IMG/VR virus record: IMGVR_UViG_3300049448_000009
Coordinates: 1-22,620 of that record
Reading direction: 5' to 3' (one strand)
Source of the DNA: a virus
DNA length: 22,620 nt
Part shown: piece after piece, positions 7,812 through 20,513 of the stretch
How the letters are laid out: the number at the start of each line of letters is the position of its first letter
Position numbering within the stretch: the stretch's first letter is position 1
Translations under genes and position numbers: made by a program
Notes under the pieces: generated by a model
Seen by the model: the letters and a program-made list of their open reading frames with translations, nothing else
Told to the model about the DNA's origin: nothing
The model's database searches: none

Positions 7812-8189
7812 TCAGCCTTTCTTCGCTTTCGCCTTCTTGCTCATCGCCGACAGCAGGAATAATCCCGTCAGCGCCGTGCTGGAAATGCGTGCGCCTTTCT
7901 GTGCCGGCGTCTTCGCCGGCGGCAGGTCGACGACTTCATCCTTCGGCATCGCTTCCTTCATGTCTTCGGTGGTCAGCATGAAGTCGGCAAGCGTTGCGGC
8001 CTTGTGCTTGCGCAGGTCGCGGTGCTGGTTCGCGATGAGCGTGCAGAGCAGCGCGTTGCGCAGGTCCTGCCGACGCTCGCCGAACGGTTCCAGCCGGTAA
8101 TAGTCGACCCAGTCGAGCAGCTCGGCATAGGACATCTCATCGCCAAGCTGCTCGACCGTTTTGCCAAGTGCCAAGGCCACCCGATGCAT
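7812..8189 (-). CDS. Tail assembly chaperone, T-frame (expressed as G-T frameshift product)
   Basis: The ORF encodes 125 residues if read from ATG at 8189, beginning MHRVALALGKTVEQLGDEMSYAELLDWVDYYRLEPFG. This matches the C-terminal T domain of lambda-type tail assembly proteins (a helical core followed by a helix-turn-helix-like EMSYAELLDW element). The open frame extends upstream past 8189 as RIGGHPLKRF to the GGGAAAA slippery site, and the conserved part clearly begins in that extension. It is therefore probably made as a -1 frameshift extension of the G protein, about 248 residues in total, rather than from its own start: no ribosome binding site precedes the ATG. The C-terminus is lysine-rich (SKKAKAKKG). 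The G-T fusion normally recruits the tail tube protein to the tape measure. Confidence 0.85.
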   Translation of the reverse strand: MHRVALALGKTVEQLGDEMSYAELLDWVDYYRLEPFGERRQDLRNALLCTLIANQHRDLRKHKAATLADFMLTTEDMKEAMPKDEVVDLPPAKTPAQKGARISSTALTGLFLLSAMSKKAKAKKG

Positions 8190-8197
8190 GAAGCGCT

Positions 8198-8557
8198 TTA
8201 ATGGATGACCTCCGATTCTTTTCCCGGCGTCTTCTCCGGTGTTGCGTTCAGCCCGACCGCCTGCGCGATCTTGCCGACCAGATCATTGAACGCGTCTATA
8301 CGAACCTCGAGCAGCGCGCGTGCTTCTTCGCGCGAGATGACCGGCTTGCCGTCTTCGTCGCACAGCGCTTCGGAGATAAGCAAAAGGGCGAACTCTTGGT
8401 TGTTCGCCCCTTTGGACCGCTGCACGTCCTGCAGTGAAAAGACTTTTTTCGCGCTCAGCTGCTTCACGAAAAAGGCTTGCGACACGCCATCGACCGTCAC
8501 TTCGATCGGCACGATTTTCGGCGCGTACATCGTCAGAAGACTCTGCTTGTCAAACAT
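8198..8557 (-). CDS. Tail assembly chaperone, G-like
   Basis: This 119-residue protein lies between the tail tube and tape measure genes, the position of lambda gpG. It begins MFDKQSLLTMYAPKIVPIEVTVDGVSQAFFVKQLSAKKVFSLQDVQRSKG and carries helical segments rich in acidic residues (EFALLLISEALCDEDGKPVISREEARALLEVRIDAFNDLVGKIAQAVGL). The frame ends in TPEKTPGKESEVIH after passing over a GGGAAAA slippery heptamer. AAGGAGGG stands five bases before the ATG, one of the best ribosome binding sites in the window, which fits high expression of G relative to G-T. It coats the tape measure during tail assembly and is absent from virions in lambda (family knowledge). Confidence 0.87.
   Translation of the reverse strand: MFDKQSLLTMYAPKIVPIEVTVDGVSQAFFVKQLSAKKVFSLQDVQRSKGANNQEFALLLISEALCDEDGKPVISREEARALLEVRIDAFNDLVGKIAQAVGLNATPEKTPGKESEVIH
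8219..8225 (-). other. Programmed -1 frameshift site GGGAAAA (G to G-T)
   Basis: Reading the G frame as CCG GGA AAA GAA gives an X XXY YYZ heptamer, G GGA AAA. Slipping back one base places both tRNAs on GGG AAA, and the next codons (AGA ATC GGA GGT CAT CCA TTA AAG CGC) run without a stop into the T frame. An SD-like GGAGAAG lies about 8 bases upstream (8231-8237) and could stimulate slippage. Lambda uses GGGAAAG at the same place in G/T. The predicted fusion has 113 G-encoded residues plus 135 from the T frame. Confidence 0.85.
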
Positions 8558-8622
8558 GCTTCCCTCCTTCACGGAATTGAAAAACCACAACCACCACCAC
8601 ACAACCAGCACGGCGCTCCCTG
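8558..8622 (-). other. Short intergenic spacer, tail tube to chaperone
   Basis: These 65 bases separate the tail tube stop from the G-like start. On the transcribed-sense strand the stretch is GT-rich, with repeated TGG/TTG units followed by a T5 run, and ends with CGTGAAGGAGGG, the ribosome binding site for the G-like gene. No stable hairpin is visible, so it is not called a terminator. The CGTGAAGGA core resembles the GTGAAGGA at the end of the capsid leader. Confidence 0.4.
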
Positions 8623-9060
8623 TTACGGACCTGCAGGGCTGCCGCCTGGTGGCGCGTAATCGACCGAGCCGCTGACCTGCAACGAGATTTTCAGATCGAC
8701 CTTGTCGTCGGTCTTGACGTCGAGATTCCACGACGTGACGATGCCTTCGAACGTGAAGACGTGGAATTCGCCAGACGTGTCGTCGGGAATCTTGACGCGG
8801 AAGGTGTTGGCAGGTGCCTGCGTTGCGTACATCGTGCGCAGGTACATCTGATACGTCTCGCCGGTGAAGTTGCAGTCCATCGAAATCGCACCCCAGTCCG
8901 CGAGGCCTTGCAGATATTCCTTGCCCGTGGACTTCAGGTGCGTCGTGTCGATCAACTTCGCTTTGCCATCCGGCCCGGTGATGTTGACGACCTCTTCGAT
9001 GTCGTGCAGCACGCCCGCGACCAAGACGCTGATGATGGATTGCTGTGCTTTCAAAGCCAT
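8623..9060 (-). CDS. Major tail tube protein
   Basis: This 145-residue protein, starting MALKAQQSIISVLVAGVLHDIEEVVNITGPDGKAKLIDTTHLKST, has the typical tail tube pattern. Strands surround a D-T-T-H-L-K-S-T motif and a GLADWGAISMDCNFTG segment, with a long antiparallel section (FRVKIPDDTSGEFHVFTFEGIVTSWNLDVKTDDKVDLKISLQVSG) typical of lambda gpV/HK97 gp-type tube subunits. It ends in a flexible PPGGSPAGP tail and lacks a fused Ig-like domain. It stacks as hexameric rings around the tape measure. It is preceded by a 68-base leader with a three-codon mini-ORF and the site GAAGGAATCATC-ATG, nearly the same as that in front of the capsid ORF. Confidence 0.92.
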   Translation of the reverse strand: MALKAQQSIISVLVAGVLHDIEEVVNITGPDGKAKLIDTTHLKSTGKEYLQGLADWGAISMDCNFTGETYQMYLRTMYATQAPANTFRVKIPDDTSGEFHVFTFEGIVTSWNLDVKTDDKVDLKISLQVSGSVDYAPPGGSPAGP

Positions 9061-9128
9061 GATGATTCCTTCGCCAGTGTTCTAATGGGCCATCGACTTG
9101 CCTCCTTTTCTTCGCACGAGCTGGTGCG
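9061..9128 (-). promoter_or_regulatory. Leader of the tail tube gene with mini-ORF ATG-GCC-CAT-TAG
   Basis: The 68-base gap holds, in transcription order: a small stem CGCAC-cagctc-GTGCG (9128-9113), AAAAGGAGG, a three-codon mini-ORF ATG GCC CAT TAG (9093-9082) seven bases later, then GAACACTGGC and the GAAGGAATCATC ribosome binding site of the tail tube gene. The block GTCGATGGCCCATT-A-GAAC is shared with the capsid leader at 20514-20551. ATGG-C-CCAT is also an inverted repeat, so a protein-binding site is the alternative. Both are inference; only the sequence similarity and layout are seen. Confidence 0.6.
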
Positions 9129-9500
9129 TCAGTCCCGGTAGTTCCACACGGAAAAATCAAACGTCATGTGATAAAGGCGCGTGTCGTCTTCGTACATTTC
9201 GGACCCGAAGCTGTAGACCGAAGAAAACGCGGTCGCTTCGTTCATCATGTCGACGATGGATTCCTTCAGCGCCGTCAGTTGCGGATAGCTCGGCCCGTAC
9301 AGGTCGAAGCGTATCTGCGCCTTCTCGAGCTTCGTCACGCCTTTCAAATCGCCGACGATGTTGTGCGTCGGCATTGAGATGATGCAGTAAGGCGTGGTCG
9401 TGCCTTGCGGCGCGCGCAGCGAGTAATAGCGATTCCCAAGCACGGCGACGACTGGCGCAGTGCCGTCGATGAGCGTGATGACTTTTTCCTTGAGATACAT
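9129..9500 (-). CDS. Tail terminator-like protein (DUF3168-like)
   Basis: This 123-residue protein starts MYLKEKVITLIDGTAPVVAVLGNRYYSLRAPQGTTTPYCIISMPTHN. It shows the DUF3168 pattern found in many siphophages: a helix followed by LGNRYYSLRAPQGTTTPYCIIS, a strand FDLYGPSYPQLTALKESIVDMMNE and a closing YHMTFDFSVW. Proteins of this type (lambda gpU-like fold) cap the tail tube and form the head-side tail interface. Its ATG directly follows the stop of the upstream gp10-like gene with no spacer. The order gp10-like, DUF3168-like, tail tube is the standard siphophage arrangement and supports the call. Confidence 0.83.
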   Translation of the reverse strand: MYLKEKVITLIDGTAPVVAVLGNRYYSLRAPQGTTTPYCIISMPTHNIVGDLKGVTKLEKAQIRFDLYGPSYPQLTALKESIVDMMNEATAFSSVYSFGSEMYEDDTRLYHMTFDFSVWNYRD

Positions 9501-9983
9501 CTATTGGAACCCTGTGCCGGTCATTTCTTGCGTCAGCACGCCGCGCAGCGTCTGCTGCTCGGCATAGTCGCGCGCCACGCTGAGCGCTTCGTTGACCGAG
9601 CGCCCGAAGCCGCGTTCCATGAACGGATTGCCCGCCTTCGAACTGTGACCGAACTCGACGAAATACCAGTAGTAAGCGTCTTCGCTTTGCTGCGCCTGGT
9701 TCTTCTTGCCGGGGCGGACTTTCGCCTTGACGAAAACGACGTATTGCACGAGGTTCCACGGGACGTCGCGCTTGCGCCGCGCTGCCCAGATGTGACGACG
9801 CAGAACGCCGGTGAGCTTTGGCGCTTCCTGCTGCACGCTTTTCACGCCGACGCGCGCCGCGCGCAGCATCGAGCCGGCCGCGACCTTCTCCTTCAGATTG
9901 AGCGGCAGCGTCTTCAGCTTGGCACTGATTTCCTTCATGCCGTGGACGCCGACTTCGCTGGAGACGGAGACGAAGCTAACCAC
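9501..9983 (-). CDS. HK97 gp10-like head-tail / tail completion protein
   Basis: The 160-residue protein carries the signature of the HK97 gp10-like family: a basic helical N-terminus (VHGMKEISAKLKTLPLNLKEKVAAGSMLRAARVGVKSVQQEAPKLTG), a PKLTGVLRRHI block, and a YYWYFVEFGHSSKAGNPFMERGF element matching the family's Y-x-x-x-x-E-F-G-x-S-x-x-x-x-x-P-F-x-R-P-A pattern. Family members join tail to head during assembly. The GTG start at 9983 overlaps the end of the upstream head closure gene by 8 bases. The first 15 residues are poorly supported, and an ATG at 9938 (MKEIS) is an alternative start. Confidence 0.86.
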   Translation of the reverse strand: MVSFVSVSSEVGVHGMKEISAKLKTLPLNLKEKVAAGSMLRAARVGVKSVQQEAPKLTGVLRRHIWAARRKRDVPWNLVQYVVFVKAKVRPGKKNQAQQSEDAYYWYFVEFGHSSKAGNPFMERGFGRSVNEALSVARDYAEQQTLRGVLTQEMTGTGFQ

Positions 9984-10326
9984 TGGTCAGCCCCGTCGAG
10001 CAGATCAGTGTGAGTTCGGCGCGCTTTCCCGTCGGGTCCTGCACCGACAGAATGTCGGCTGGCAGGTCGGGCGGGCCGAGCAGAAGCAGCCGATGCAGCT
10101 CGGTCACGTCGGGGCGATAGCGCATGGTGATCTTGTACGTCGTCACCGCGCGCACCATCTCGGCGGTCGTCTGCTCTGTCTCCATCTTGCGGAAGCCGAA
10201 GAACGGTTCGACCTTGACCATATCGGGGCCGACGTCGGTCCACACCGGTTCGAACGCGCCGAGCGTGTCCTTCGGGTCCGCACGCGCCTGAATCATGCAA
10301 GGCGTGCGCAGTTCGCCGGCATTCAT
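9976..10326 (-). CDS. Head closure (head-tail joining) protein
   Basis: The 116-residue product begins MNAGELRTPCMIQARADPKDTLGAFEPVWTD. It matches the phage head closure/Phage_H_T_join pattern: MNAGELR.. at the N-terminus, a W-x-D/V-x-x-x-V-A/V block, an E-type helix (FFGFRKMETEQTTAEM), a Y-K-I-T-M-R-Y-R strand (residues about 85-92), and a final L-x-x-x-D-P-T-G-K-R/E-L segment. It plugs the portal/connector channel after DNA filling. The ATG overlaps the upstream connector stop (ATGA), and AGAGG lies five bases before it. Confidence 0.87.
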   Translation of the reverse strand: MNAGELRTPCMIQARADPKDTLGAFEPVWTDVGPDMVKVEPFFGFRKMETEQTTAEMVRAVTTYKITMRYRPDVTELHRLLLLGPPDLPADILSVQDPTGKRAELTLICSTGLTSG

Positions 10327-11012
10327 GCGAACCTCTTGCGCAGGCAGTAAGGGTCCATCAGCGACTGCGCGCCAGACGGAATCTTCGCGAGCTTGAGCGT
10401 CGTCGTGTCTTCGCGATTCTCGTGCAGGTGGCCGAGTGTCAGCAGCATGGCGGCCTTGACCGATTCCGGCATTGGGTTCACTGCCGGCGACGTCATCGGC
10501 TTATCGTAGCCGGCATCGAAGCGGATGCGCACGGCGCTCTGTATCTGCCACGTGTCGGGCCACGGGCCGACCAGGTCGACGGGATAGAGCGCCGACGGCT
10601 GCGCGACGTCGTCGAGAAAATAGCCGGCCGGGTCCATGACCTGCAGCGTGCCGGTCGTGTCGTAATAGCTCACCGACACGAGGTCGGTGATCGGCCCCAT
10701 TGGCAGCAGCACGCCATACTCACCGACCGAGGAAAAATCGAACTCCCCCGCAGCGGGGTGGTGATATTCCGAACTCGGAAACGAATCGGCCCAAAATTCC
10801 AGCGTCTGCGGCGCGATGGCGATGGCCAGATACTGCTCGCACATCTCGCGCGCGACCGGAATGAAGCTGTCGAACCACGCGTCTTCTTGAGTGTAGTTGA
10901 CGCGCAGGTGCGCTTTCGCTTCGTCAACGTCGATCTGTTCCTGCGTCGGTGGCGTCACGACGCGAATGCCGAAGCGCAGCAGGTGCGGACCCCTGTGTGG
11001 GCGAATCATCAT
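10323..11012 (-). CDS. gp6-like head-tail connector (phiE125 gp8 type)
   Basis: Starting at the ATGATG at 11012, the product has 229 residues. It contains the connector core: the D-E-A-K-A-H-L-R-V block at about 30-38, then DAWFDSFIPVAREMCEQYL, LEFWADSFPS, then a strand-rich domain with PITDLVSVSYYDTTG and RIRFDAGY, and a C-terminal helix PESVKAAMLLTLGHLHENRE. This is the architecture of HK97 gp6 and phiE125 gp8-type connectors that dock to the portal ring. An in-frame extension to 11051 overlaps the GT-A gene, and AGAGGT precedes 11012, so that start is preferred. It directly follows the sugar-modification cassette rather than the portal, which is unusual. Confidence 0.88.
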   Translation of the reverse strand: MMIRPHRGPHLLRFGIRVVTPPTQEQIDVDEAKAHLRVNYTQEDAWFDSFIPVAREMCEQYLAIAIAPQTLEFWADSFPSSEYHHPAAGEFDFSSVGEYGVLLPMGPITDLVSVSYYDTTGTLQVMDPAGYFLDDVAQPSALYPVDLVGPWPDTWQIQSAVRIRFDAGYDKPMTSPAVNPMPESVKAAMLLTLGHLHENREDTTTLKLAKIPSGAQSLMDPYCLRKRFA

Positions 11013-11692
11013 GGCGCGACCTCTTTGGTCCATAGTTCGGCATGCTCGCAATCGCGGTGCTGCGGGAATTCAGGCGTGCCGAGCGTGAAGTGCGCAACCA
11101 TCGGGCGCGCTGGCTTCGGCTGCACGCCGACGAGCCAGTTGGCTTCCGGCGGCAGTTCGCCGATCTCGCTGTCGGCGAGCCACTTGAACGCGTGCAGATC
11201 GCGGCCCGGCCACTGGTTCAGTGTCATCAGATTCAGCCGCGCGTTCGCGGGGTGGTCGACGTTCCACAACATGACCGACGACCACAGCTTGCGCGGATAG
11301 ACGGTTTGCGCGCGGCCATCCATCTTGGTCGCAGCGAAGCGATGCGTCGGATGCTTGACCACCGCCACCGCCTTCGACTCGTCCATGTACGCAGCGAGCG
11401 CCTGCGCCGGGTCCTCGAGGAACACGACATCGCTGTCGACGAACAGGCACCAGCCCGAGTGCGCGAGCAACGGCACGAAGAAGCGCGCGATGGCGAAGCT
11501 GGTCGACTGCGACGCCGACGAGTTGAAGTCCCACATCTCGCCGCGCGTGTCGACCGGGCGCGTCAGCATGCCCGACATGCGCAGCCGGTCTTCGCGCAGC
11601 GGGATGACGTCGCAGCCGTAGCGCTTCGCGGTCGTCGTCGCGACGTCGAACGACACCGGCGCGCGCGGTTCGAATCCGATGTAGGTCTTCAC
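11009..11692 (-). CDS. GT-A fold glycosyltransferase (GT8-like), DSD motif
   Basis: This 227-residue enzyme has the hallmarks of a GT-A transferase. The N-terminus MKTYIGFEPRAPVSFDVATTTAKRYGCDVIPL is a nucleotide-sugar Rossmann-like half. FVDSDVVFL at residues 84-92 contains the divalent-metal-binding DxD triad (DSD, 86-88). The C-terminus has NWLVGV and HFTLGTPEFP, resembling the H-x-x-G element of GT8 enzymes. It would transfer a hexose from a nucleotide-sugar to an acceptor that cannot be told from sequence. The GTG start overlaps the methyltransferase stop (GTGA) after GGAAGCGG. Its position inside the head genes suggests a virion or host-surface acceptor, which is inference. It has no signal peptide or membrane segment, so it acts in the cytoplasm. 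Confidence 0.85.
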   Translation of the reverse strand: MKTYIGFEPRAPVSFDVATTTAKRYGCDVIPLREDRLRMSGMLTRPVDTRGEMWDFNSSASQSTSFAIARFFVPLLAHSGWCLFVDSDVVFLEDPAQALAAYMDESKAVAVVKHPTHRFAATKMDGRAQTVYPRKLWSSVMLWNVDHPANARLNLMTLNQWPGRDLHAFKWLADSEIGELPPEANWLVGVQPKPARPMVAHFTLGTPEFPQHRDCEHAELWTKEVAP

Positions 11693-12198
11693 GGCTTCAC
11701 CGCTTCCAGGCGCATGTCGCGATAGTCGCGCTTGCCGTGGAACTGCAGCGCGCCCGGCTTGATGTCGACGAAGCCGGCGGCCTTCAGCTCGTGCGTCAGT
11801 TCGTACACCGTCCAGCCCCAGCGATGCATCATCAGCGGATTCGCGCTGCGCGGGTCACCGAACAGGCCGCGCCGCGCCGCGTCGTGGTCCATGACGCCGG
11901 TGGTGATGTGGCGGCAGACCTTGAGCAAGTCGGGCAGCTCGACGATCAGCACGCCACCCGAGCGCAGCACACGGAACCATTCGCGCAGCGCCAGCGGCGC
12001 GTCCCACCGCTCCAGATGCTCGACGACATGGATGGCAGCGACTTCGTCGGCGAAGCCATCCGGCAGCGGCAGCGCCTTGACATCGCAGCGCAGGTCCGCG
12101 CCGTCGGCCACGTCGATGTTGATGTAGCCCGGCCACAGCTTGCGACCGCAGCCGACGTTCAGCTTCTTCGGCAGCGCCTGCAGGTTAAGCATGTTCAC
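11689..12198 (-). CDS. Class I SAM-dependent methyltransferase
   Basis: The product carries methyltransferase motif I KLNVGCGRKLWPGYINID (LNVGCG at residues 11-16 from the internal Met), motif II DLRCDVKALPLPDGFADEV and motif IV AIHVVEHLERW, followed by REWFRVLRSGGVLIVELPD. This is the Methyltransf_11 arrangement typical of enzymes that act on sugars or small molecules. The GTG at 12198 has AGGGAG nine bases upstream; an ATG at 12192 or 12228 is possible. It overlaps the end of the preceding GT-B-like gene. In glycan cassettes such enzymes usually methylate a transferred sugar (inference). The family is clear, but the substrate is unknown. Confidence 0.82.
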   Translation of the reverse strand: MNMLNLQALPKKLNVGCGRKLWPGYINIDVADGADLRCDVKALPLPDGFADEVAAIHVVEHLERWDAPLALREWFRVLRSGGVLIVELPDLLKVCRHITTGVMDHDAARRGLFGDPRSANPLMMHRWGWTVYELTHELKAAGFVDIKPGALQFHGKRDYRDMRLEAVKP

Positions 12199-13030
12199 GG
12201 GCTGGCGCTCCCTGTTGCTGTGCGGCATGCGCCGCGAGTCGGGCCAGCAGATAGCGCCACGCTGCGGCAGCCTCTTGCGGCGTCCACTGCCACCACGCCA
12301 AGCTGCGCAGAAAGCGCAGGCGCTGTTCCACCGTGGGCATCATCGGATTGGCGATGTCGTTGTCGTACAGCGCCGCCGCCGCGCCGTCTTCGCACGCGAC
12401 CGGGATGCCGGCGATGCAGGCGTCAATCGCAACATTCGAATGCCGGCAGACGACCAGCGACGCGCCGGTCAGCACTTCCGCAATCGGCATGCCTGCCATG
12501 CGCTTAGTGTCGGGCAGCGTGCGCGGGTCGTGGTCGCGCTTCGGCCGGTAGATGACTTCGCTGCGCGGATAGGTTCGGCGGATGCGCACCAGCGCGGCGC
12601 GCTCCCAGCTCGTTTCTTCGATGCCGAGTACCTTGTTCGCTTTCGGGCCAAGGCCCACCAAGACAATCGGGCCATCGGGGTCGTGATCGTCGCGCAGCTT
12701 GATGCCGTAAGAATCGAAGCGGTCAGGTTCTTCGTCGCGCAGCCACGCCTGCGGATGATCGGCGTCGATGGCCACGCGCATCGCATGATTGTCGCGGTGC
12801 CGGTTCCAGTAGCCGAGGTCCCATCCGATGGCGTGCCGCCCGCTCGCGACGTGCCGGAAGAACCACGGGCGGCGCTGCGCATGGCCGATGCCGTAGGTCA
12901 TCAGCAGATCGCAGTCGCCGTGATAAGTGAACCGCACCTTGCAGGCGACCGGCGCTGCGTCGGCCAGCGCCTGCATCATCCGCGCGGCCGGCAGAATCAT
13001 CTCGTGCGAGACGATGAGTTCACAGCGCAT
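12185..13030 (-). CDS. GT-B / capsule-synthesis-like protein (LAWxQW family, copy 2)
   Basis: This 281-residue protein has two Rossmann-like halves. The first is RFTYHGDCDLLMTYGIGH, and the second is PIVLVGLGPKANKV followed by EVLTGASLVVCRHSNVAIDACIAGIPVACED (residues 185-214), which has the VV-x-x-x-S-x-x-A-x-x-x-x-x-x-G-x-P signature of GT-B and KpsS-like capsule proteins. The C-terminal RLRFLRSLAWWQW (237-249) matches the RLAMFRELAWAQW of the gene at 14377-15132. It may transfer or polymerise sugars, but no catalytic residue is certain. Its ATG lies inside the previous gene, with GGAG eight bases before it. The C-terminal tail is alanine/glutamine-rich. Confidence 0.7.
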   Translation of the reverse strand: MRCELIVSHEMILPAARMMQALADAAPVACKVRFTYHGDCDLLMTYGIGHAQRRPWFFRHVASGRHAIGWDLGYWNRHRDNHAMRVAIDADHPQAWLRDEEPDRFDSYGIKLRDDHDPDGPIVLVGLGPKANKVLGIEETSWERAALVRIRRTYPRSEVIYRPKRDHDPRTLPDTKRMAGMPIAEVLTGASLVVCRHSNVAIDACIAGIPVACEDGAAAALYDNDIANPMMPTVEQRLRFLRSLAWWQWTPQEAAAAWRYLLARLAAHAAQQQGAPAREHA

Positions 13031-13853
13031 CAAGCCATCTCCGGTAGGTGTCTGCCACGTCGTCGAGCGACAGCGCGTGCAGCGCCATCGTCTCGGCCCG
13101 GTGGCGACGTTCGGCGACCGGGGCCAGTGTCTCCAGCCCGGCCGCGAACTCGTCGGCGCTGTCGGCCCACAATTCAGCGCCCGACGCGATCTCGAGCGCG
13201 CCCGCTTCGCGTGACACGATGCACGGCGTCGCCGAGCCTTGCGCGTTGGCGAGCTTGGTGCCGGCTTTCCAGTGCGTCGGCGCGTAGCCGCATTGCACGC
13301 GCACCGCGACGACAATGTCGAGGTCGGACAGCGCGTTCGGATTGATGACGAAGCGCCAGCCGTGGCTGCGACACTCGACGTCAAACCACGTCTGCCACTT
13401 GCCCAGGTACTGCAGGCCGCCTTCGTAGCCGACGGTCGCGACCTCTTCGCGGATGGGATTGCGCTGCAGACCGGGGCGCGCGTGATGTGGCAGCGCCAGC
13501 ACCGGCACGCCGAACGGTTCGCAGTCGTTCGCCATCGCTTCGGTCGCGGCAACGATGGCGTGCGGACTGACGCGGTCGACTTCGCTGCGCAGCCAGTCGA
13601 TGCATTCGTCCTTGCTCCACGAATTGCCGACCTGCTGCGGCCACGCGTCGACGATGTCCCACACCACCGGCACGCGCGCGGCGTGGATGCGCCCGAGCAG
13701 GTCATTGTTGGCGCGCTTGACGATGACCGCCAAGTCGATGCCGTCGAAGTTCACGGCGTTCGGCAGCACCGTCGCGCCGATGGCCGCGCCGAGCTGCACG
13801 CCGCGAATCTGCCACGACGCCGACGTGCCGCGCCCGGTGATGAGGACGTTCAT
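13020..13853 (-). CDS. GT-B fold glycosyltransferase-like protein
   Basis: The 277-residue product begins MNVLITGRGTSASWQIRGVQLGAAIGA, a short nucleotide-binding-type start. It then has ARVPVVWDIVDAWPQ (60-72), VAATEAMANDCEPFGVPVLALPHHARPG (101-128), a GYEGGLQYLGKW loop (142-153), and THWKAGTKLANAQGSATPCIVSREAGALEIASGA (194-227). The last segment resembles the donor-binding K-x-x-x-K-L...G-x-P...E-x-G-x-x-E region of GT4-type GT-B transferases. It is shorter than full GT-B enzymes (about 350-400 residues), so one half is reduced. The ATG overlaps the upstream stop (ATGA). A sugar-transfer role is inferred; donor and acceptor are unknown. It is not clearly related to its two GT-B-like neighbours. 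Confidence 0.72.
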   Translation of the reverse strand: MNVLITGRGTSASWQIRGVQLGAAIGATVLPNAVNFDGIDLAVIVKRANNDLLGRIHAARVPVVWDIVDAWPQQVGNSWSKDECIDWLRSEVDRVSPHAIVAATEAMANDCEPFGVPVLALPHHARPGLQRNPIREEVATVGYEGGLQYLGKWQTWFDVECRSHGWRFVINPNALSDLDIVVAVRVQCGYAPTHWKAGTKLANAQGSATPCIVSREAGALEIASGAELWADSADEFAAGLETLAPVAERRHRAETMALHALSLDDVADTYRRWLDAL

Positions 13854-14035
13854 GCTTTTGCCGCCTCCAGATCGCGCTCGGCGACGATGACGAAGCTGTC
13901 GGCGAACTGTCGCGCCGCTTCCACTTCCTGCGTCAGCCACGTGCCGTCCTCGTTGCGGCGGACCAGCACGACCAGCGCGCCCGACGGAACCAGCGCCCGG
14001 TCGCCGGGCCGCCATTGATGCGAAGCGCGCATCAT
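13850..14035 (-). CDS. Small hypothetical protein, SH3-like beta barrel possible
   Basis: The 61-residue product begins MMRASHQWRPGDRALVPSGALVVLVRRNEDGTWLTQEVEAARQFADSFVIVAERDLEAAKA. The PGDRALVPSGALVVLVRR and GTWLTQEV segments give a small beta-barrel pattern, followed by strand FVIVAERD and a short helix. It starts at an ATGATG overlapping the stop of the basic small ORF (TGATG) and ends in an ATGA overlap with the GT-B-like gene, so it is tightly embedded in the operon. No family is recognised. Confidence 0.65.
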   Translation of the reverse strand: MMRASHQWRPGDRALVPSGALVVLVRRNEDGTWLTQEVEAARQFADSFVIVAERDLEAAKA

Positions 14036-14172
14036 TGGCCCCGTCGCCCTTGCGTCTTCGTGCGCCGCTGCTGCTTCACGCGCTTGGCCCGCGCCTGCTT
14101 CACTTTCGCCACGGTGTTCTGCGGCACCAGCGCGGGCGTGTTGGTGGTGGTCATCGGTGCGACTTTGCCCAT
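14032..14172 (-). CDS. Small basic protein of 46 residues
   Basis: An ATG at 14172, three bases after the stop of the membrane protein, opens a 46-codon frame ending in TGA that overlaps the next ATG. The product is MGKVAPMTTTNTPALVPQNT followed by a strongly basic tail (VAKVKQARAKRVKQQRRTKTQGRRGQ) with about 12 Lys/Arg. No conventional ribosome binding site is visible; translation could be coupled to the previous gene, or start at the Met at 14154. The exact end-to-start overlaps support a real gene. The basic tail would suit nucleic-acid or acidic-partner binding, but that is only a guess. Confidence 0.5.
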   Translation of the reverse strand: MGKVAPMTTTNTPALVPQNTVAKVKQARAKRVKQQRRTKTQGRRGQ

Positions 14173-14175
14173 GAC

Positions 14176-14364
14176 TTATTTGCGTCCGACATACAGGTCG
14201 GGCCACGGGCCGAACAGGGACAGCAGCCACAGCACGACCACGATGATGACGACGACGTAGATGATCTTTTTGATGCCGGGGTCGATCATCGTGCCCCACC
14301 GATTGAGCGCATAAAGTCCGAAGCCGACCAGCAGCAGAATGACGACGACGGCGATCAGAGACAT
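14176..14364 (-). CDS. Small two-helix membrane protein, Thivi_2564-like
   Basis: The 62-residue product has two hydrophobic segments, about residues 3-20 (LIAVVVILLLVGFGLYAL) and 34-51 (IIYVVVIIVVVLWLLSLFG), joined by a short loop NRWGTMIDPGIKK. This matches the Thivi_2564 family of small bacterial membrane proteins in layout and sequence (MSLI start, M/D-x-x-IKKI linker, VLWLL end). The ATG has AAAGGAG eight bases upstream, one of the clearer ribosome binding sites here. It is the only membrane protein in the cassette and is likely inner-membrane located. No topology signal or function can be given. Confidence 0.78.
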   Translation of the reverse strand: MSLIAVVVILLLVGFGLYALNRWGTMIDPGIKKIIYVVVIIVVVLWLLSLFGPWPDLYVGRK

Positions 14365-14376
14365 GGCCTGCTCCTT

Positions 14377-15132
14377 TTAATTGAGTAACGTCTTCAGCGC
14401 GGTGCCGTCGGCGACTTCGCTTTCACGCCACTGCGCCCACGCCAGTTCGCGAAACATCGCGAGCCGCGCAGCGCTGTCGCGTTTCGGTTCGCCGCCGAAC
14501 TCGGACAGCGGTCGGCACGCCGACGCGCCAATCCAGCGCGGGAAGGCGTACCAGACCGGCACGCCAAGCACGAGACAGCGCAGCGCTGCGCCGCTGTTCC
14601 AGGTGACGACCTGCTTCACGTTCTGCAGGTCGTCTTCCAGCGAGACGCCACGCACGGCGTCGGGGTGCTGCCGGATGCGTCCGCCGATCTGGCGCTGTAC
14701 CATCTCGGCCCATCCGTGCGGCGCGGCGATGCGCGGTTCGCCGAAGCCACGCTGCGCCAATATCAGCGTCTCGGTGCCGTCGTCGCGCCAGTCGGCAAGC
14801 TCGACGCCGAGTGCGTCCCATCGCTGCGCACCGAGTCGCGGCCAGCGGCCGGCACCGGCATGGTGACCGACCGCCATCGACACCCACGAGTCGCCGAGCC
14901 AGTCGCGGCCCAAATAGCCGTTCTCGCAAACGACCGCGCGCGCGCCGGCGCATTCGAAGCGGTCGGCGACGTCGCTGGCGACACCGTACCGACTCCACAG
15001 GATGGCGACATCGTCGCGCTGTGGTGGGTCGACGCTGGCGACGAGTTCGAAGCCGGCAGCGGTGATGCCGGCTTCGAACGCCCTGCGGCGTGGTTCAGGC
15101 TGTGGCCTGACAAGGCAGACAGCTCGCGCCAT
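14377..15132 (-). CDS. GT-B / capsule-synthesis-like protein (LAWxQW family, copy 1)
   Basis: The true start is ATG at 15132 (MARAVCLVRPQPEPRR), preceded by GGAGAAGG and six bases; longer readings are shadows. The 251-residue product has Rossmann-like strands AVCLVRP and VAILWSRYG (residues 42-50), then NGYLGRDW (71-78), and DLQNVKQVVTWNSGAALRCLVLGVPVWYA (168-196), the pattern seen in KpsS/capsule-synthesis (PF05159-type) and GT-B proteins. It ends with RLAMFRELAWAQW (223-235), shared with the gene at 12185. It overlaps the DUF115-like gene by 38 bases, which is long for this operon. A sugar-transfer role is inferred, and no acid/base residue can be named. Confidence 0.7.
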   Translation of the reverse strand: MARAVCLVRPQPEPRRRAFEAGITAAGFELVASVDPPQRDDVAILWSRYGVASDVADRFECAGARAVVCENGYLGRDWLGDSWVSMAVGHHAGAGRWPRLGAQRWDALGVELADWRDDGTETLILAQRGFGEPRIAAPHGWAEMVQRQIGGRIRQHPDAVRGVSLEDDLQNVKQVVTWNSGAALRCLVLGVPVWYAFPRWIGASACRPLSEFGGEPKRDSAARLAMFRELAWAQWRESEVADGTALKTLLN

Positions 15133-15895
15133 GTAGTGCCTTCTCCAGTTGAACGAACGGAAAGCAGAGCAGGTCGGTGCGCCGCGTCGCGTTGACGACA
15201 CGCACGCCCTCGTCGCGCAGGTCCTTCGCGAGCGGTTTATATTTGGCCAGCCACACGGCGTATTGTGGAAAGCTCTGCAGGTCGCCGGGATGGTCGCCGT
15301 GCCAGTGCGTGCGGCCGATTTCGTTGTTGTCGCGACAGTCGAAGCCGAGCAAGATGATTTCTTCCGCGCCGGCTTGATATGCCAGCCCGATAGCCTGCGA
15401 CCCGCTGTTCGCGCCGACGTTGATGACGCCGCGCGCACGATTGAGTCCCATGCTGTTTTCGCTGCGCACATAGTGCAGCCCGAACTTGTGCGCGGCGAGT
15501 TCATCCTGTGTCCACAGCGCGCCGGCGAAATGCCCGGCGACGTCGCCGTGGTATTTTTCCCACCATCGCCCGTCGCAGGCGTAAAGCACGTCGGCCCACG
15601 GCGCGCGCTGGTATGACGTGTTGATGACGATGACGCGGCGGTCGACGCCGTTGCGCCAGCGCTCGACCAGTGCGCAGTCGTCGGCGGTCAGGCTGATGCC
15701 GCTGGCGATGATGACGACGCTGGCGTGCGGCCAGCGCAGGCCTGCCCACGGCAGCCGGCCCATGTGGCACGTCGCGAGGCCTTTGCGCTGCAGCTCGAGC
15801 GCTTCGCGTTCGGTCTGCACGAAGAAGTGCGACGACTCGACGATGGTGCCGACGGCCGGGTCGTTGAACGACACCAGTGCGCGCAACTCGGTCAT
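15095..15895 (-). CDS. DUF115/MptE-like Rossmann protein, putative sugar enzyme
   Basis: This 266-residue protein starts at ATG 15895, in an ATGA overlap with the preceding gene. Residues 59-98 (SVVIIASGISLTADDCALVERWRNGVDRRVIVINTSYQRAP) and 157-200 (GVINVGANSGSQAIGLAYQAGAEEIILLGFDC, then THWHGDHPG) match the DUF115/6-hydroxymethylpterin-diphosphokinase-like fold, related to sialyltransferase-type transferases; G-x-x-x-S/T, NSG and HxHGDHP are the visible landmarks. Phage copies of this family are common but functionally uncharacterised. The first 40 residues form a separate short domain resembling the small protein at 18163-18390. A nucleotide-binding role is likely; the substrate is not known. 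Confidence 0.78.
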   Translation of the reverse strand: MTELRALVSFNDPAVGTIVESSHFFVQTEREALELQRKGLATCHMGRLPWAGLRWPHASVVIIASGISLTADDCALVERWRNGVDRRVIVINTSYQRAPWADVLYACDGRWWEKYHGDVAGHFAGALWTQDELAAHKFGLHYVRSENSMGLNRARGVINVGANSGSQAIGLAYQAGAEEIILLGFDCRDNNEIGRTHWHGDHPGDLQSFPQYAVWLAKYKPLAKDLRDEGVRVVNATRRTDLLCFPFVQLEKALHGASCLPCQATA

Positions 15896-16719
15896 CGCAG
15901 TCTCAGGACCGTCGGTTCTTTTGCGGTGGCGCGCTGCTCGGTCAGGTCGCGCCCGTCTTGGCCGCGCTTGACGGCGAGCGTCCACGCTTTGGCACCGTCT
16001 GCCGTTTCCGGCTTCGTGCGTGTCGCTTCGTTGCAGTGCCACGTCGAGCCGCGATAGGTGACGAAGTCGCCGGCTTCATAGTCGCGATCAGTCCACACGC
16101 CGCGATAGAGCAGGACCGGAAAATAGAGCAGCGTGGTGGTCTTGGTCTGGCCGACGGTGACGGTCAGCGCGACGCGCCGTTCGTCCTGCTGTTCGATCTG
16201 CACGTCGGGCGATTTCCACAGGCGAACCGCTGCCGCTTCCACCGCCTGGTTGATCTGTTCAGGGTCGAGCGCATCGCGTCCGTCGCGCGGCTTCGGCCAT
16301 GCGGCGAACAGATCGCGCACCAGTGCGTGGACCGCGAGCATGTCGACGTCTTTGCCGGGCGGGCCGTCCTTCGGCTTCGGCCACGCTTCGAACGCGGCGG
16401 CCACGTAGGCGGCAGCGGCTTCGCGACAGACCAGCTCCAGTCCGCTCATGTCCACCGGCGGCGCGTCCTTGCCGTCCTTGGCTTTCGGCAGCGCCGCGAC
16501 TTCGTCCGCCACTTTCGCCGCGATCAGTTCGACGTGCTGCTGCGCGCGCGCGTCCATCGCGGCGAGTATTTCATTGTGATACAAGAGTTCCGGCAGCGGG
16601 TCGCTTTCCTTCTTCGCTTTCAGCGCGGCCAGCTCGTCGCGCAGTGGTTGCAGTGCGCGTTCGATGGCGGCGCGCGTGGCTTCCGCGATACTGGCGGCCA
16701 TCTGTTTCATGTCAGACAT
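15892..16719 (-). CDS. Collagen-like probable head fibre / virion decoration protein
   Basis: The 275-residue product opens with a charged coiled coil (about residues 5-75: ASIAEATRAAIERALQPLRDELAALKAKKE). Short collagen-like linkers follow: PKAKDGKDAPP (78-88), WPKPKDGPPGKD (113-124) and WPKPRDGRDA (141-150), with helices between. The C-terminal third is a beta domain, LLYRGVWTDRDYEAGDFVTYRGSTWHCNEATRTKPE (204-239), reminiscent of small chitin-binding CBM5/12-type domains, plus a last KRGQDGRD. Proteins of this design sit on heads or tails as trimeric fibres. Placement right after the portal suggests a head fibre. GGAGG six bases before the ATG supports this start, which overlaps the portal stop by 8 bases. 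The role is inferred. Confidence 0.72.
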   Translation of the reverse strand: MSDMKQMAASIAEATRAAIERALQPLRDELAALKAKKESDPLPELLYHNEILAAMDARAQQHVELIAAKVADEVAALPKAKDGKDAPPVDMSGLELVCREAAAAYVAAAFEAWPKPKDGPPGKDVDMLAVHALVRDLFAAWPKPRDGRDALDPEQINQAVEAAAVRLWKSPDVQIEQQDERRVALTVTVGQTKTTTLLYFPVLLYRGVWTDRDYEAGDFVTYRGSTWHCNEATRTKPETADGAKAWTLAVKRGQDGRDLTEQRATAKEPTVLRLR

Positions 16720-18166
16720 AAGCGACCTCCAGCAGAGCGCGCACTTCGTCGGCCAGTTCGCGGTGGAATTCTTCGGCGTCGTAGGTCTTCGCCGGTGGAC
16801 GCGCGGAAGATGCCGGCTCTGGCGACGACGGTGGTGCCGGCAACGCCGGCGTCGGTGCGGCAGGCGTGGCGCGATTGACCAGTTCGCTTATCGGCCACAT
16901 CTGGTTTTGCATGAACGGCGCGTCGCCGCCCGGCACCGGCTCAAGGTTTTCGATGCGGCGCGCTTCGTTCGGTGCCATCACGCCCGACGTGAGGTTCGAC
17001 TTGTTCGCTTCGGCGCGGCCTTGCGGGTCCATGCGCAGCAGGCCTTCCAGGTCCATCTCGGCGCTGTACGGCGGCGGATTCTTGCCGAGTTCCAGCCCTT
17101 CGTTCAGCAGCGCTTCGACGGCTTCGATGTAAAGCTGCAGCGTCTGCGAGTAGTAATCCTGATTGAGCGCCGAGACGGAATTGAACGACGCCGGCAGCGA
17201 GCCGCCGAGCTTGTACAGCGGCACGTTGAACGCGCGCGCCACGTCTTCGGTCGTCCACTTCAGCTGCTCAATCAGTTGCGAGTCGGTCGGCGTCATCGAC
17301 ATCGGCTCATATTTCAAGCCGTCGCCGGCGACCAAGATGCGCCCGAGATTGCCCTGACCGAAGTCGTGTTCGAAATCTTCCTTCAGCCGCTTCGCGGTCG
17401 CGTCCGGTATCGTGCCGGGACTGGTCAGCTGGCCAGACGGTCGACTCATGTTCTGGAAGAAGCGCGCGCTGTTGGCCTGAATCTTCAGGCCCTGCGTCGT
17501 GCTGCCCGCGCACGCATAGATCGGCGACACGCCGACCAGCGGATGCCACAGGCACGGGCCGCGATCATGGATGATCGCGTCGGCCGGCACGGTGACCGAC
17601 TGGTCGACGCCGGCGAGTGTTGCGGTGTGCGCCGAGTCGGTGTCGATGCGATAGAACACGGACCCGTCAGAGGCCACCAGCGGCGTGACGTAGAAGGGAT
17701 TGAGCGGATAGAGCGCGGTGACGACGCCGCGACTGTCGCGCTCCTTGAACTGGTAAGCATTGCCGTGCAGCAGCTTCCACGCAATCCACATCTGGATGAA
17801 CTGCAGCCGCGTCTGGTAGCGGTTCGGCTTGTTCAGCACCGCAGCCAGTGGTGACGCGCGGCCCACTTCTTTCCAGACGCCACCTTTGCCCTCTTCCATC
17901 ATCTTGATGCGCAGCTTCGCGATGTCGCCCGAGATGAGCGCGACGCACGAATAGACGGCCGAGAACGCCAGCATGTTCGCCGGCGTCACCGGCGCGGTGT
18001 AGCGCTGCCACGCGCCGGCAAACGGTTCCCATATCGCACCCATCCAGCCACCGCCGCGCCCGGCCTGCGCCAGCGGCGTGACGTCGGTGACCATGTCCAT
18101 GCCCTTCTCGAGCGCGGGCGGTGGGTCCATGCCGTCGTAGTTCGCGGCGGTTTTAAACAGGCTCAT
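16712..18166 (-). CDS. HK97-family portal protein
   Basis: This 484-residue protein fits the HK97 gp3-type portal: N-terminal FSAVYSCVALISGDIAKLRIKMME, then PNRYQTRLQFIQMWIAWKLLHGNAYQF, the PLNPFYVTPL segment, and a core DAIIHDRGPCLWHPLVGVSPIYACAGS. Further along are NSARFFQNMSRPSGQLTSPG, then WTTEDVARAFNVPLYKLGG (about 300-318) and the alpha-rich LNQDYYSQTLQLYIEAVEALLNEGL (334-358). The C-terminus is a low-complexity proline/alanine tail. Dodecameric portals form the DNA-entry vertex and bind terminase and the connector. The ATG overlaps the upstream stop (ATGA). Unusually, this portal lies downstream of the capsid gene, not upstream. Confidence 0.96.
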   Translation of the reverse strand: MSLFKTAANYDGMDPPPALEKGMDMVTDVTPLAQAGRGGGWMGAIWEPFAGAWQRYTAPVTPANMLAFSAVYSCVALISGDIAKLRIKMMEEGKGGVWKEVGRASPLAAVLNKPNRYQTRLQFIQMWIAWKLLHGNAYQFKERDSRGVVTALYPLNPFYVTPLVASDGSVFYRIDTDSAHTATLAGVDQSVTVPADAIIHDRGPCLWHPLVGVSPIYACAGSTTQGLKIQANSARFFQNMSRPSGQLTSPGTIPDATAKRLKEDFEHDFGQGNLGRILVAGDGLKYEPMSMTPTDSQLIEQLKWTTEDVARAFNVPLYKLGGSLPASFNSVSALNQDYYSQTLQLYIEAVEALLNEGLELGKNPPPYSAEMDLEGLLRMDPQGRAEANKSNLTSGVMAPNEARRIENLEPVPGGDAPFMQNQMWPISELVNRATPAAPTPALPAPPSSPEPASSARPPAKTYDAEEFHRELADEVRALLEVAYV

Positions 18167-18390
18167 TCTTCCGCCGTCAGATCGCGTCGGCGATAGCGTC
18201 CGCGCGGCGTCGGCTCTGGTCGAGCTGCAGGTGCAGGCATATCCGCAGCGGCCGGCACGCGTGCCGAGCCGCTTTTGAGCAGCTGCTTCAGGTCGGCGTC
18301 ATCAGCATCGAACACGGCACCGCGCACGTGCAGCGCGCCGCCGTAGAAAATCCGCTTGCAGGCAATCATTCGCACAGTCGCACCCTTCAT
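18163..18390 (-). CDS. Small virion-operon protein, unknown (DUF7210-like pattern)
   Basis: The product is about 75 residues from ATG 18390; ATG 18369 (MIACKRIFYGG) would give 68 and has AAGGG, though 13 bases away. It contains KRIFYGGALHVRGAVFDADDADLKQLLKSGSARV, a short beta-beta-helix unit of the kind often encoded next to the capsid gene, followed by a proline-rich, basic tail (PAAADMPAPAARPEPTPRGRYRRRD). The start lies directly after a terminator-like hairpin, so the translation start is uncertain. The stop overlaps the portal ATG. It may be a small decoration or head-vertex protein; no function is established. The unit recurs at the N-terminus of the DUF115-like protein at 15895. Confidence 0.62.
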   Translation of the reverse strand: MKGATVRMIACKRIFYGGALHVRGAVFDADDADLKQLLKSGSARVPAAADMPAPAARPEPTPRGRYRRRDLTAEE

Positions 18391-18427
18391 CAAAAGAAGG
18401 GGCCAGCCACGTGCAGCCGGCCCCCTT
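18391..18427 (-). terminator. Terminator-like hairpin after the capsid gene
   Basis: In transcription order, the arms AAGGGGGCCGGC and GCTGGCCCCTT pair around an 8-base loop TGCACGTG, with one bulged G and one G-U pair. The hairpin is followed by CTTTTG. This is a GC-rich rho-independent-type structure 23 bases after the capsid stop. It is read as a partial terminator or processing barrier that would reduce portal and downstream transcript relative to capsid transcript. The T-tail is short, so readthrough is likely, and the downstream genes must still be transcribed. Confidence 0.65.
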
Positions 18428-18449: not shown

Positions 18450-20513
18450 CTACAGCGCGAGGTTCGACCACACGGCGACGACGTGCGCTCGACGTGGTGC
18501 GTAATTGATGAAGCGCACCGCACGAATGCCGACAAGGCCGTTCTGCCACAGGCTGACCAGCGAAGTCGCGCCACCGGTCGGCGTGTCCGTCATTTCGACC
18601 GATGCTTCCATCGACAGGTCGACCGCGATGCCGCCGTCGTCCGCCATCAGAATTTCGGACTCCTTGACCAGCACGGCAATCGTGTCGCCGACCGAGACGG
18701 CGCTGAATGGCACGTTTTGCGACGTGATGACCGGGAAGCCCTTGAACGTGCCGCCGTTGACGTTGATGTCGGGAAATGCCAGCGGCCCTTGCGCGGTGCG
18801 CAGCGTGCCGATGTTCAGCGCCGTGCGCGGATTCATAATCCAGGTGCAGCCACTCGGTGGCACCTTGTTGTTGACCAGCTCCATGATGACGGCCGACGTG
18901 TCGGTGTCGACGCTGGCGATGGTGGTGCCGGTCGATTGAATCTTCACCGCAGCGAAGGTGATCGACGCCGGCGAGACACCGGCGACCGCCGCGACGGTCG
19001 GGTCGATGAACTGATGGTCGGCATACGCTGCAATCGCTTCGGCGAGGTCGTTGCGGATGACGCCTTCGGCGCTCGGCGTGGAGAAGCGCGCCAGTTCTTC
19101 GGAGATGACGACGATGGTCGCGATCTTGGTGATGCCGAGCGCGATGGTGTCGAACACTTCCTTGGACAGCGGCATCGGCTTCGCTTCGCCGACCCACTTC
19201 GACGCCGACGCGCCGGCGGTCATGCGCGCCACCTTGACGTTGAACGGCATCTTGCGCGTCGCGGTCAGCCGCCCGAGTATCGTCATCGGATAAAGGAACT
19301 CGACGAACTCGGAAGCCATCTGGTTGACCGGCGCGAGCGGCCCGGCCCACGACGCGTCCGTGGTGACGCCCGGCGCGACCGCTGCCTTCTGGTTCATCAG
19401 CAGCGATTCGATCTGGCGCGGTCCTGCGCGCAGCCGCAGCGCCTGTTCCACTTCCGGCGTCGAGTCGCGCCACATCTTCGCGCGCTCCAGCGCTGCCGTC
19501 GGGTCGTTCTTCGAATCGGCGATGGCGATGCAGTAGCGCACGAACGGCATGCCCTTCGGCAAGTTCGCGTTCGGGCGCAGGATGAAGTCGCGAGCGCGGC
19601 CACGCGCCGGTTCCTGCACGTCATCGGTCGACGCTGTGCCGCCGCCGTTCGCTTTGGTATCGACCGGCGCTGCGGACGCGACGACCGACTTCTGCACTTC
19701 GCGCATGCGCTTGAGCTGCACGTCCGCCGCCTTGATTTCGTCGGTGAACTTGTCGAACTCTTCGCCCTCTTCGGGCGTCATGTTGGTGGCGCGCTCGACG
19801 GATGCGTCGAGCAGTGCCTTGCGCGCCGCTTCGGCGGCCGCGCGCTTCGCTTCGTAGCCGGCGATCTGTTCGGCAATGGTTTGCATCGTGTTTCCTTTCG
19901 ATGGTTTTTTGCCGGAGTCGCCCGGTGTGGAAGATGCCGTCGCAGCGCTGGTGCCGGTCGCGGCGCGCTCGACTTGCAGGTCGAATGACTTGATGGAAGT
20001 GATGGTCGCGTCGGCGTTCGCGGGAATCGTCACCAGCGAAAGCTCGAGCCATTCCCATTCCAGAAAACGAATTCCGCCCCACGGGTCTTTCGCGTTGACC
20101 GGTTCCATCTTGGTCGGAATGAAACCGATGGAGACGCCACGGATGAGCTTCAGCTTCATCTCGGCCCACGCGACGTCGAAGCGTTCTTTCAGTGTCGGCG
20201 GTGCGTCGATCTGCTCGACGTGGCCGCGCACCTGGATGCCGTCGGCCGTGACCTGCGCTTCGGTCACCAGACCAATCGGCAGGTCGGTCTTGTGGCCCTT
20301 GATGAACGAGACGGGCAGCTTGAAGCGCGCGCCGTTCGGTTCAACGATGTCGCCCTGACGGTCGGTCGATGGTGTCGAAGCCGTGGCTTCGAACGTGCGC
20401 GCGTTGTCGTCGAATTGCTTGATGTCCAGACGCGCCCAGCATTGCACTGGTGCTGCGCCTTTCTGCGACAGTCGCGCGATGCGCTCGCTGTACTGCTCGC
20501 GCTGGTCGGCCAC
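18450..20513 (-). CDS. Fused prohead protease - HK97 major capsid protein
   Basis: One continuous 687-residue ORF. Residues 1-182 form a U35/S78-type prohead protease with FIKGHKTDLPIG (catalytic His74), RGVSIGF (Ser128) and ELSLVTIPANADA (about 157-169). A serine/threonine/glycine linker (about 183-209) follows. Residues 210-687 are an HK97 gp5-type capsid protein: a helical delta-domain-like start MQTIAEQIAGYEAKRAAAEAARKAL, then ARDFILRPN, ASEFVEFLYPMTILGRLTATRK, KWVGEAKPMPLSKEVFDTI, and a C-terminal MADDGGIAVDLSMEASVEM plus WQNGLVGIRAVRFINYAPRRAH. The GTG start has AAGGA seven bases upstream. A strong internal start at 19886 would give a separate 478-residue capsid protein. Protease and capsid are usually separate genes in HK97-like phages. 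Confidence 0.94.
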   Translation of the reverse strand: MADQREQYSERIARLSQKGAAPVQCWARLDIKQFDDNARTFEATASTPSTDRQGDIVEPNGARFKLPVSFIKGHKTDLPIGLVTEAQVTADGIQVRGHVEQIDAPPTLKERFDVAWAEMKLKLIRGVSIGFIPTKMEPVNAKDPWGGIRFLEWEWLELSLVTIPANADATITSIKSFDLQVERAATGTSAATASSTPGDSGKKPSKGNTMQTIAEQIAGYEAKRAAAEAARKALLDASVERATNMTPEEGEEFDKFTDEIKAADVQLKRMREVQKSVVASAAPVDTKANGGGTASTDDVQEPARGRARDFILRPNANLPKGMPFVRYCIAIADSKNDPTAALERAKMWRDSTPEVEQALRLRAGPRQIESLLMNQKAAVAPGVTTDASWAGPLAPVNQMASEFVEFLYPMTILGRLTATRKMPFNVKVARMTAGASASKWVGEAKPMPLSKEVFDTIALGITKIATIVVISEELARFSTPSAEGVIRNDLAEAIAAYADHQFIDPTVAAVAGVSPASITFAAVKIQSTGTTIASVDTDTSAVIMELVNNKVPPSGCTWIMNPRTALNIGTLRTAQGPLAFPDINVNGGTFKGFPVITSQNVPFSAVSVGDTIAVLVKESEILMADDGGIAVDLSMEASVEMTDTPTGGATSLVSLWQNGLVGIRAVRFINYAPRRAHVVAVWSNLAL
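19884..19899 (-). promoter_or_regulatory. Internal ribosome binding site and ATG for free capsid protein
   Basis: Within the fused ORF, GAAAGGAAA stands six bases before the ATG of codon 210 (MQTIAEQ), exactly at the predicted protease/capsid boundary. The spacing and strength match those of the best starts in the operon, and codon 210 opens a 478-residue protein of normal capsid length. It strongly suggests that free capsid protein is translated as well as, or instead of, the fusion. An A6 run lies just upstream, at 19905-19910. This is inference from sequence alone. Confidence 0.7.

Follow-up and report, generated by a model that had tools for sequence, protein, structure and literature searches.

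The virus record IMGVR_UViG_3300049448_000009 of the IMG/VR collection, analysed here over positions 1–22,620 (22,620 nt, or 22.6 kb; 'the window' in what follows), carries a minus-strand cassette of six predicted enzyme genes, designated D, B1, B2, B3, MT and A, which occupies positions 11009–15895 and extends from a head-fibre-like gene to the gene for the head–tail adaptor. A first-pass annotation, made by a model from the sequence alone, had described a carbohydrate-type cassette separating the portal and fibre genes from the connector genes, and this is borne out by the gene coordinates and by matches to PHROG families. The observation is, moreover, larger than had been thought, in that the cassette is an enzyme module conserved among phages and linked to their virion genes. 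It is probably, in our view, a late virion-glycosylation module that furnishes one of the virion proteins with a short, O-methylated glycan.

The six genes recur in a fixed order among virion genes

The genes of the cassette are listed below from the first onwards, together with three small open reading frames (ORFs) that separate B1 from B2; L002 is the closest relative of the window.

15095–15895, minus strand: D, single-domain DUF115/GT42-like protein, 266 aa (phrog_4603, 'alpha-2,3-sialyltransferase', 3.5e-47)
14377–15132, minus strand: B1, LAWxQW protein, paralogue of B3 (hhalign to the B3 profile 99.2%, with a control comparison run)
14176–14364, minus strand: small ORF, 62 aa, with two hydrophobic stretches (a similar membrane ORF at the same place in L002)
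14032–14172, minus strand: small basic ORF, 46 aa, judged from its sequence (L002 has a similar peptide in the corresponding position)
13850–14035, minus strand: small ORF, 61 aa (no counterpart seen in L002; unmatched in Pfam and PHROG)
13020–13853, minus strand: B2, GT4-like glycosyltransferase of predicted GT-B fold, 277 aa (predicted model, pLDDT 97.5)
12185–13030, minus strand: B3, LAWxQW protein, predicted Kdo-transferase-like GT-B fold, 281 aa (predicted model, pLDDT 95.6)
11689–12198 (GTG start) or 12228 (ATG start), minus strand: MT, putative S-adenosylmethionine (SAM)-dependent methyltransferase (Methyltransf_11, 38.3 bits against a cut-off of 21.2; 2.2e-9)
11009–11692, minus strand: A, GT-A-type glycosyltransferase with a DSD motif (phrog_28018, 4e-44)

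Here Kdo denotes 3-deoxy-D-manno-oct-2-ulosonic acid, GT a glycosyltransferase family or fold, and pLDDT the predicted local distance difference test score.

Profile scans of IMG/VR with B3, B1 and A supplied most of the loci compared, which formed 189 non-redundant clusters in all. These scans used enzyme sequences only and so were unbiased towards structural neighbours, within a collection that consists of viral contigs only. A hidden Markov model of each window gene was then applied to every ORF of the collected loci. All six enzyme genes were present in 47 non-redundant clusters, and in 40 of these the order D-B1-B2-B3-MT-A was uninterrupted by any other cassette gene, the remainder having a duplicated or displaced gene. 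The ratio of non-synonymous to synonymous substitution rates (dN/dS) against L002 was 0.11–0.22 for all six genes, compared with 0.06–0.25 for the neighbouring structural genes; the cassette genes are thus under purifying selection, as are those for the portal, fibre and adaptor. Because these values fall within the structural-gene range, and because 40 of 47 independent contigs repeat the gene order, the arrangement is more than chance. Pairwise-identity correlations among the cassette genes (0.2–0.6) were no higher than with neck genes, and the case for co-inheritance therefore rests on gene order.

The most specific of the six genes is B2, and 67 of the 71 loci that contain it also hold head or tail genes, which lie on the strand of the cassette in 457 of 458 instances. 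The first-pass annotation had asked whether the gene set always stays in the structural operon, and had named cassettes lying mostly elsewhere as evidence against its proposal; almost all B2 loci are placed as it expected. The four others comprise two contigs shorter than 5 kb and two podovirus-type phages. Where a contiguous block had both flanks visible, it stood between head closure and neck (12 loci), fibre and adaptor (10), capsid and adaptor (4) or fibre and a second D gene (1). The gap between portal/fibre and connector, which the annotation had taken as the site of the cassette, is thus the site in the window and only one of several positions used. In the prophage of Variovorax sp. JS1663 the set is split, with D between fibre and adaptor and B1 to A between tail tube and tape measure. 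On a tree of B2 plus B3 (57 rows, with coarse position labels) the position class changed at least seven times on well-supported branches, and throughout these changes the block was kept among the head, neck and front tail genes. Two contigs that are close on this tree (L014 and L042) differ in the gene order of the heads that hold the block.

The gap between B1 and B2 is variable, holding different genes across relatives and often a second methyltransferase. A second SAM methyltransferase occupies this slot in L070, L115, L137, L013, L014, L027, L144, L156, L056 and L063. Given that the contents differ, the tiny ORFs were rejected as conserved subunits in general.

Coupling of the genes, which the first-pass annotation had inferred from strand and start positions, is evident from starts that overlap or nearly touch the preceding stops on the minus strand (D–B1 by 38 nt, B2–B3 by 11 nt and MT–A by 4 nt), the exception being B1–B2 with its three intervening ORFs. 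No promoter-like site was found across positions 8000–18400, the cassette included, and terminator-like sites were rarer there than in shuffled sequences.

Predicted folds and motifs of the cassette enzymes

The enzyme classes proposed in the first-pass annotation were correct: its LAWxQW pair corresponds to B1 and B3 and its GT4-like protein to B2, and the DUF115-like protein, the methyltransferase and the GT-A enzyme with DSD were likewise rightly classed. In the window B1, B2 and B3 had no Pfam, PHROG or NCBIfam match above noise. Profile searches of Protein Data Bank (PDB) sequences with these three proteins, and with the protein of a distant podovirus relative (L009), also gave noise only.

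The 20 best Foldseek matches of the B3 model were retaining Kdo transferases only, and the best PDB matches were KpsC (GT107), WbbB (GT99) and KrkA (GT140), the closest solved folds. The model reached Z 12–13 to KpsC and WbbB, exceeding the next, unrelated fold (Z 10) by about 3 units. A GT-B fold of the retaining β-Kdo type is therefore predicted for B3 from its model and, by homology to B3, for B1. All 51 B3 homologues lacked a Pfam or PHROG match, and neither B1 nor B3 has detectable sequence similarity to KpsC, WbbB or KrkA. Retaining β-Kdo transferase families share a (K/R)XHP motif that binds cytidine monophosphate (CMP), also present in sialyltransferases, and a QXXXD motif that supplies the nucleophile (PMC12887879, PMC10148158). 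The first of these is kept by B1, in which R154, H156 and P157 are invariant in 41 of 41 sequences, whereas B3 has RPK in its place. At the QXXXD column B1 reads QRGIG, with Gly in 41 of 41 (columns from a sequence alignment, not a structural superposition), and B3 reads GxGxK; B3 has, however, an invariant HSN motif. QXXXD was judged in aligned columns only, counts of the pattern in unaligned sequences being swamped by chance matches and discarded. The column assignment is supported by L009, where RPHP and GQVPQD occupy the aligned positions. Since B1 lacks QXXXD and B3 lacks both motifs, neither is filed here as a Kdo transferase. The use of a CMP-sugar is likely for B1, which keeps the CMP-binding motif.

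The B2 model gave Z ~20 to many GT4 enzymes over residues 1–277, among them SdgB and Gtf3, which are GT4-type enzymes that glycosylate proteins. As many GT4 enzymes score alike, this predicted likeness does not decide the acceptor. The family Glyco_trans_4_4 was matched by 6 of 49 B2 homologues.

D forms one conserved domain with about 200 conserved residues. It scored 19.9 bits against PF01973 (MptE-like/DUF115), below the cut-off of 34.6, and 29 of 37 D homologues matched this family, weakly, at E ≤ 0.01. A D profile of 10 sequences matched Cst-II sialyltransferases at E ~1e-3 over most of its length, the value for 37 sequences being only 0.05. The catalytic domain of the Maf flagellin O-glycosyltransferases (pfam01973) resembles Cst-II (PMC11339370), and D belongs to the same superfamily as these enzymes; Maf proteins, however, have three domains, whereas D is a single domain below the Pfam cut-off and does not share that architecture. 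An N-terminal extension of about 55 residues (window 15730–15895) is common only to L002, L015 and L024. A fused targeting domain on D was considered and rejected, as these 55 residues match only those three close relatives.

MT is assigned as a class I SAM methyltransferase from its family match. In A, residues D86 and D88 of the DxD motif are invariant in 36 of 36 relatives, and 8 of these 36 have a weak match to GT8.

Genome setting

On the minus strand of the window the structural genes run from terminase through protease–capsid fusion, portal and head-fibre-like protein to the cassette, and on through adaptor, head closure, neck, terminator and tail tube to tape measure. The flanking landmarks are:

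18450–20513, minus strand: protease–capsid fusion (phrog_617, 8e-119)
16712–18166, minus strand: portal (phrog_12, 3e-103)
15892–16719, minus strand: head-fibre-like protein with a portal-associated C-terminal domain (phrog_1289, 4e-33)
10323–11012, minus strand: gp6-like head–tail adaptor (phrog_442, 6e-20)
9976–10326, minus strand: head closure (phrog_25)

Beyond head closure follow the neck, tail terminator and major tail protein genes. The first-pass annotation had stated that these landmarks normally lie together; in a phage with a portal 49% identical (L249) the fibre gene indeed abuts the adaptor ORF, which represents the empty state. The head-fibre-like protein, whose gene adjoins the sugar genes, has a weak carbohydrate-binding match (CBM_5_12, 6.6e-5) that is under the cut-off, and its homologues are present also in cassette-free phages. 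A small ORF at 18163–18393 had no other match among the collected loci, and a scan of viral records with the adaptor protein returned only L002.

In bacterial genomes B2 was found in 2 of 301 of the Variovorax family group and in 1 of 369 in a wider class sample, the latter being the Variovorax genome itself. One locus of that family group (L258, G055:C25, 9459–11456) has a lone strong B2 beside a weak A-like gene, with no phage genes detected nearby. Its surroundings look like ordinary chromosome, and this B2 is possibly a cellular source of the gene or a transfer from phage. A number of phage contigs (L207, L210, L213, L218, L223, L226, L227 and similar) have A and a number of B1/B3-type paralogues, in part with the RxHP motif intact, and lack both B2 and head–neck genes of the window type; theirs is a larger, different sugar cassette.

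Partial relatives in named phages

B2 was absent from 50,697 phage records, so that the full set occurs in no phage record searched, and a literature search found no description of the cassette. The first-pass annotation could match the combination to no described pathway; partial relatives do exist in PAJU2, D3, CcrSC, CcrColossus and Tetraselmis virus S20. Like the window, these combine D and a methyltransferase with further sugar enzymes, known or putative, within or beside their structural genes; unlike it, they have no B2 and fewer or different transferases. PAJU2 shares the head order of the window and carries its own D, gp11 and MT between head closure and neck, its D homologue being labelled 'structural protein' by the depositors. 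In D3, D lies between capsid and adaptor. CcrSC and CcrColossus have D, a B1-type gene, A and MT together with a GT9 gene, placed after the tail genes and before the lysis genes, and in S20 the stretch from capsid to head closure contains two D genes along with transferases and methyltransferases. In Klebsiella phage vB_KvM-Eowyn (L257, 265 kb) a D homologue at 2303–2875 is deposited as 'structural protein'. Phage P1 (L006) carries at 4941–6127 two adjacent, overlapping D-family (DUF115-like) paralogues, pmgO and pmgP, described only as putative morphogenetic functions; both were non-essential in a CRISPR interference screen (PMC10695390).

Capsids bearing glycans have been reported for the mycobacteriophages Che8 and Rita (Freeman et al. 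2023, as cited in PMC11256854). These phages, like the window to judge from the families, folds and motifs of D, B2 and A, encode glycosyltransferases, which in the mycobacteriophages are believed to modify proteins of their own virions. The systems differ in that the putative transferases of the mycobacteriophages lie close to the genome's 3' end (Maravista, PMC11256854), whereas the window has an ordered six-gene block among head–neck genes. The Che8 and Rita glycan was, moreover, shown by experiment, in phages of mycobacterial hosts, whereas glycosylation by the window system is a prediction.

Virion glycosylation and its alternatives

If the cassette glycosylates virions, its six genes would act as one module made late with the head and neck proteins. 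D might start or cap a glycan on a Ser/Thr-type site in the cytoplasm, which B1, B3, B2 and A would lengthen, and MT, with the second methyltransferase of many carriers, would methylate sugar hydroxyls. At least B1 and D would probably use CMP-activated acidic sugars of the host. Gram-negative bacteria generally possess CMP-Kdo. A CMP-sugar synthetase (PF02348) was absent from all 30 carrier records, and a phage-encoded supply was therefore rejected; as none of the records is certified complete, this absence is suggestive only, and the donor is probably the host's.

Virion glycosylation is favoured by the recurrence of the six genes, their same-strand structural context, at least seven moves within the head, neck and front tail genes, purifying selection, and the predicted folds and motifs. 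It is favoured also by the 'structural protein' labels in PAJU2 and Eowyn, by the Che8 and Rita precedent and by the membership of D in the Maf superfamily. Several points weigh against it. The modification itself is so far a predicted one. No single structural protein is common to all carriers in the survey, which therefore singles out no acceptor; the capsid and fibres had been proposed, and the fibre was rejected as an obligate acceptor, since carriers with the portal–capsid order but no detected fibre gene exist (e.g. L018 and L040). The two podovirus-type phages (L092 and L096) carry the set between replication and lysis genes. The fibre-side gap is a general insertion place, in which L241, L243, L246 and L248 carry other genes. 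Finally, the Asp that serves known Kdo transferases as nucleophile is missing from both B1 and B3. A fuller proposal can be offered only tentatively, and is rather doubtful as a whole: that the module decorates virions with an O-methylated glycan holding a Kdo- or sialic-type acid from the host CMP-sugar pool, by way of nucleophile-less enzymes of Kdo-transferase fold, in tailed phages of largely uncultured hosts (one identified, that of the Variovorax prophage).

The main rival is that the cassette alters the core of the host lipopolysaccharide (LPS), or the capsule, at a late stage of infection, for instance to keep progeny from sticking to debris or to exclude competing phages. We regard this as unlikely, yet it deserves more weight than the first-pass annotation gave it because several of the enzymes resemble those of LPS and capsule synthesis: B3 is similar in predicted fold to Kdo transferases, D may resemble Cst-II, a lipooligosaccharide sialyltransferase, and the Caulobacter versions add a GT9 heptosyltransferase-type gene. 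The set also adjoins lysis genes in the two podovirus-type carriers and the Caulobacter phages. Nearly all carriers, however, have the genes within the head–neck–tail genes, to which they return after each move, a placement that late expression alone would not demand; serotype conversion, moreover, is normally expressed in the lysogen.

Activity on phage DNA, a further alternative of the annotation, is most improbable. Phage glycosyltransferases that act on DNA are well known, and two carriers have the set beside replication genes; but the cassette sits among virion genes, its predicted folds match Kdo and GT4 enzymes rather than known DNA glucosyltransferases, and a thymidylate-synthase-type hydroxymethylase (PF00303) was found in none of the 30 carrier records, many of them incomplete. 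It is improbable, too, that some cassette proteins serve as virion components or as binders, having kept an enzyme fold and lost activity. The depositors' labels in PAJU2 and Eowyn would fit such a role, as would the missing catalytic Asp in B1 and B3, whereas RxHP in B1, DxD in A and HSN in B3, motifs of the active-site type, do not vary, a methyltransferase has no obvious structural role, and the D homologue pmgO of P1 is dispensable (PMC10695390).

If virion glycosylation is indeed the function, glycan-coated phages would be far commoner than the few known mycobacteriophage cases suggest, with coating enzymes that escape detection, as B1, B2 and B3 of the window match no Pfam, PHROG or NCBIfam family above noise. 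The cassette would also be a source of cytoplasmic glycosylation enzymes with Kdo-transferase folds. The cultured partial relatives PAJU2, D3, CcrSC and CcrColossus make virion glycosylation testable, and such a glycan could affect phage adsorption, immune recognition and stability.

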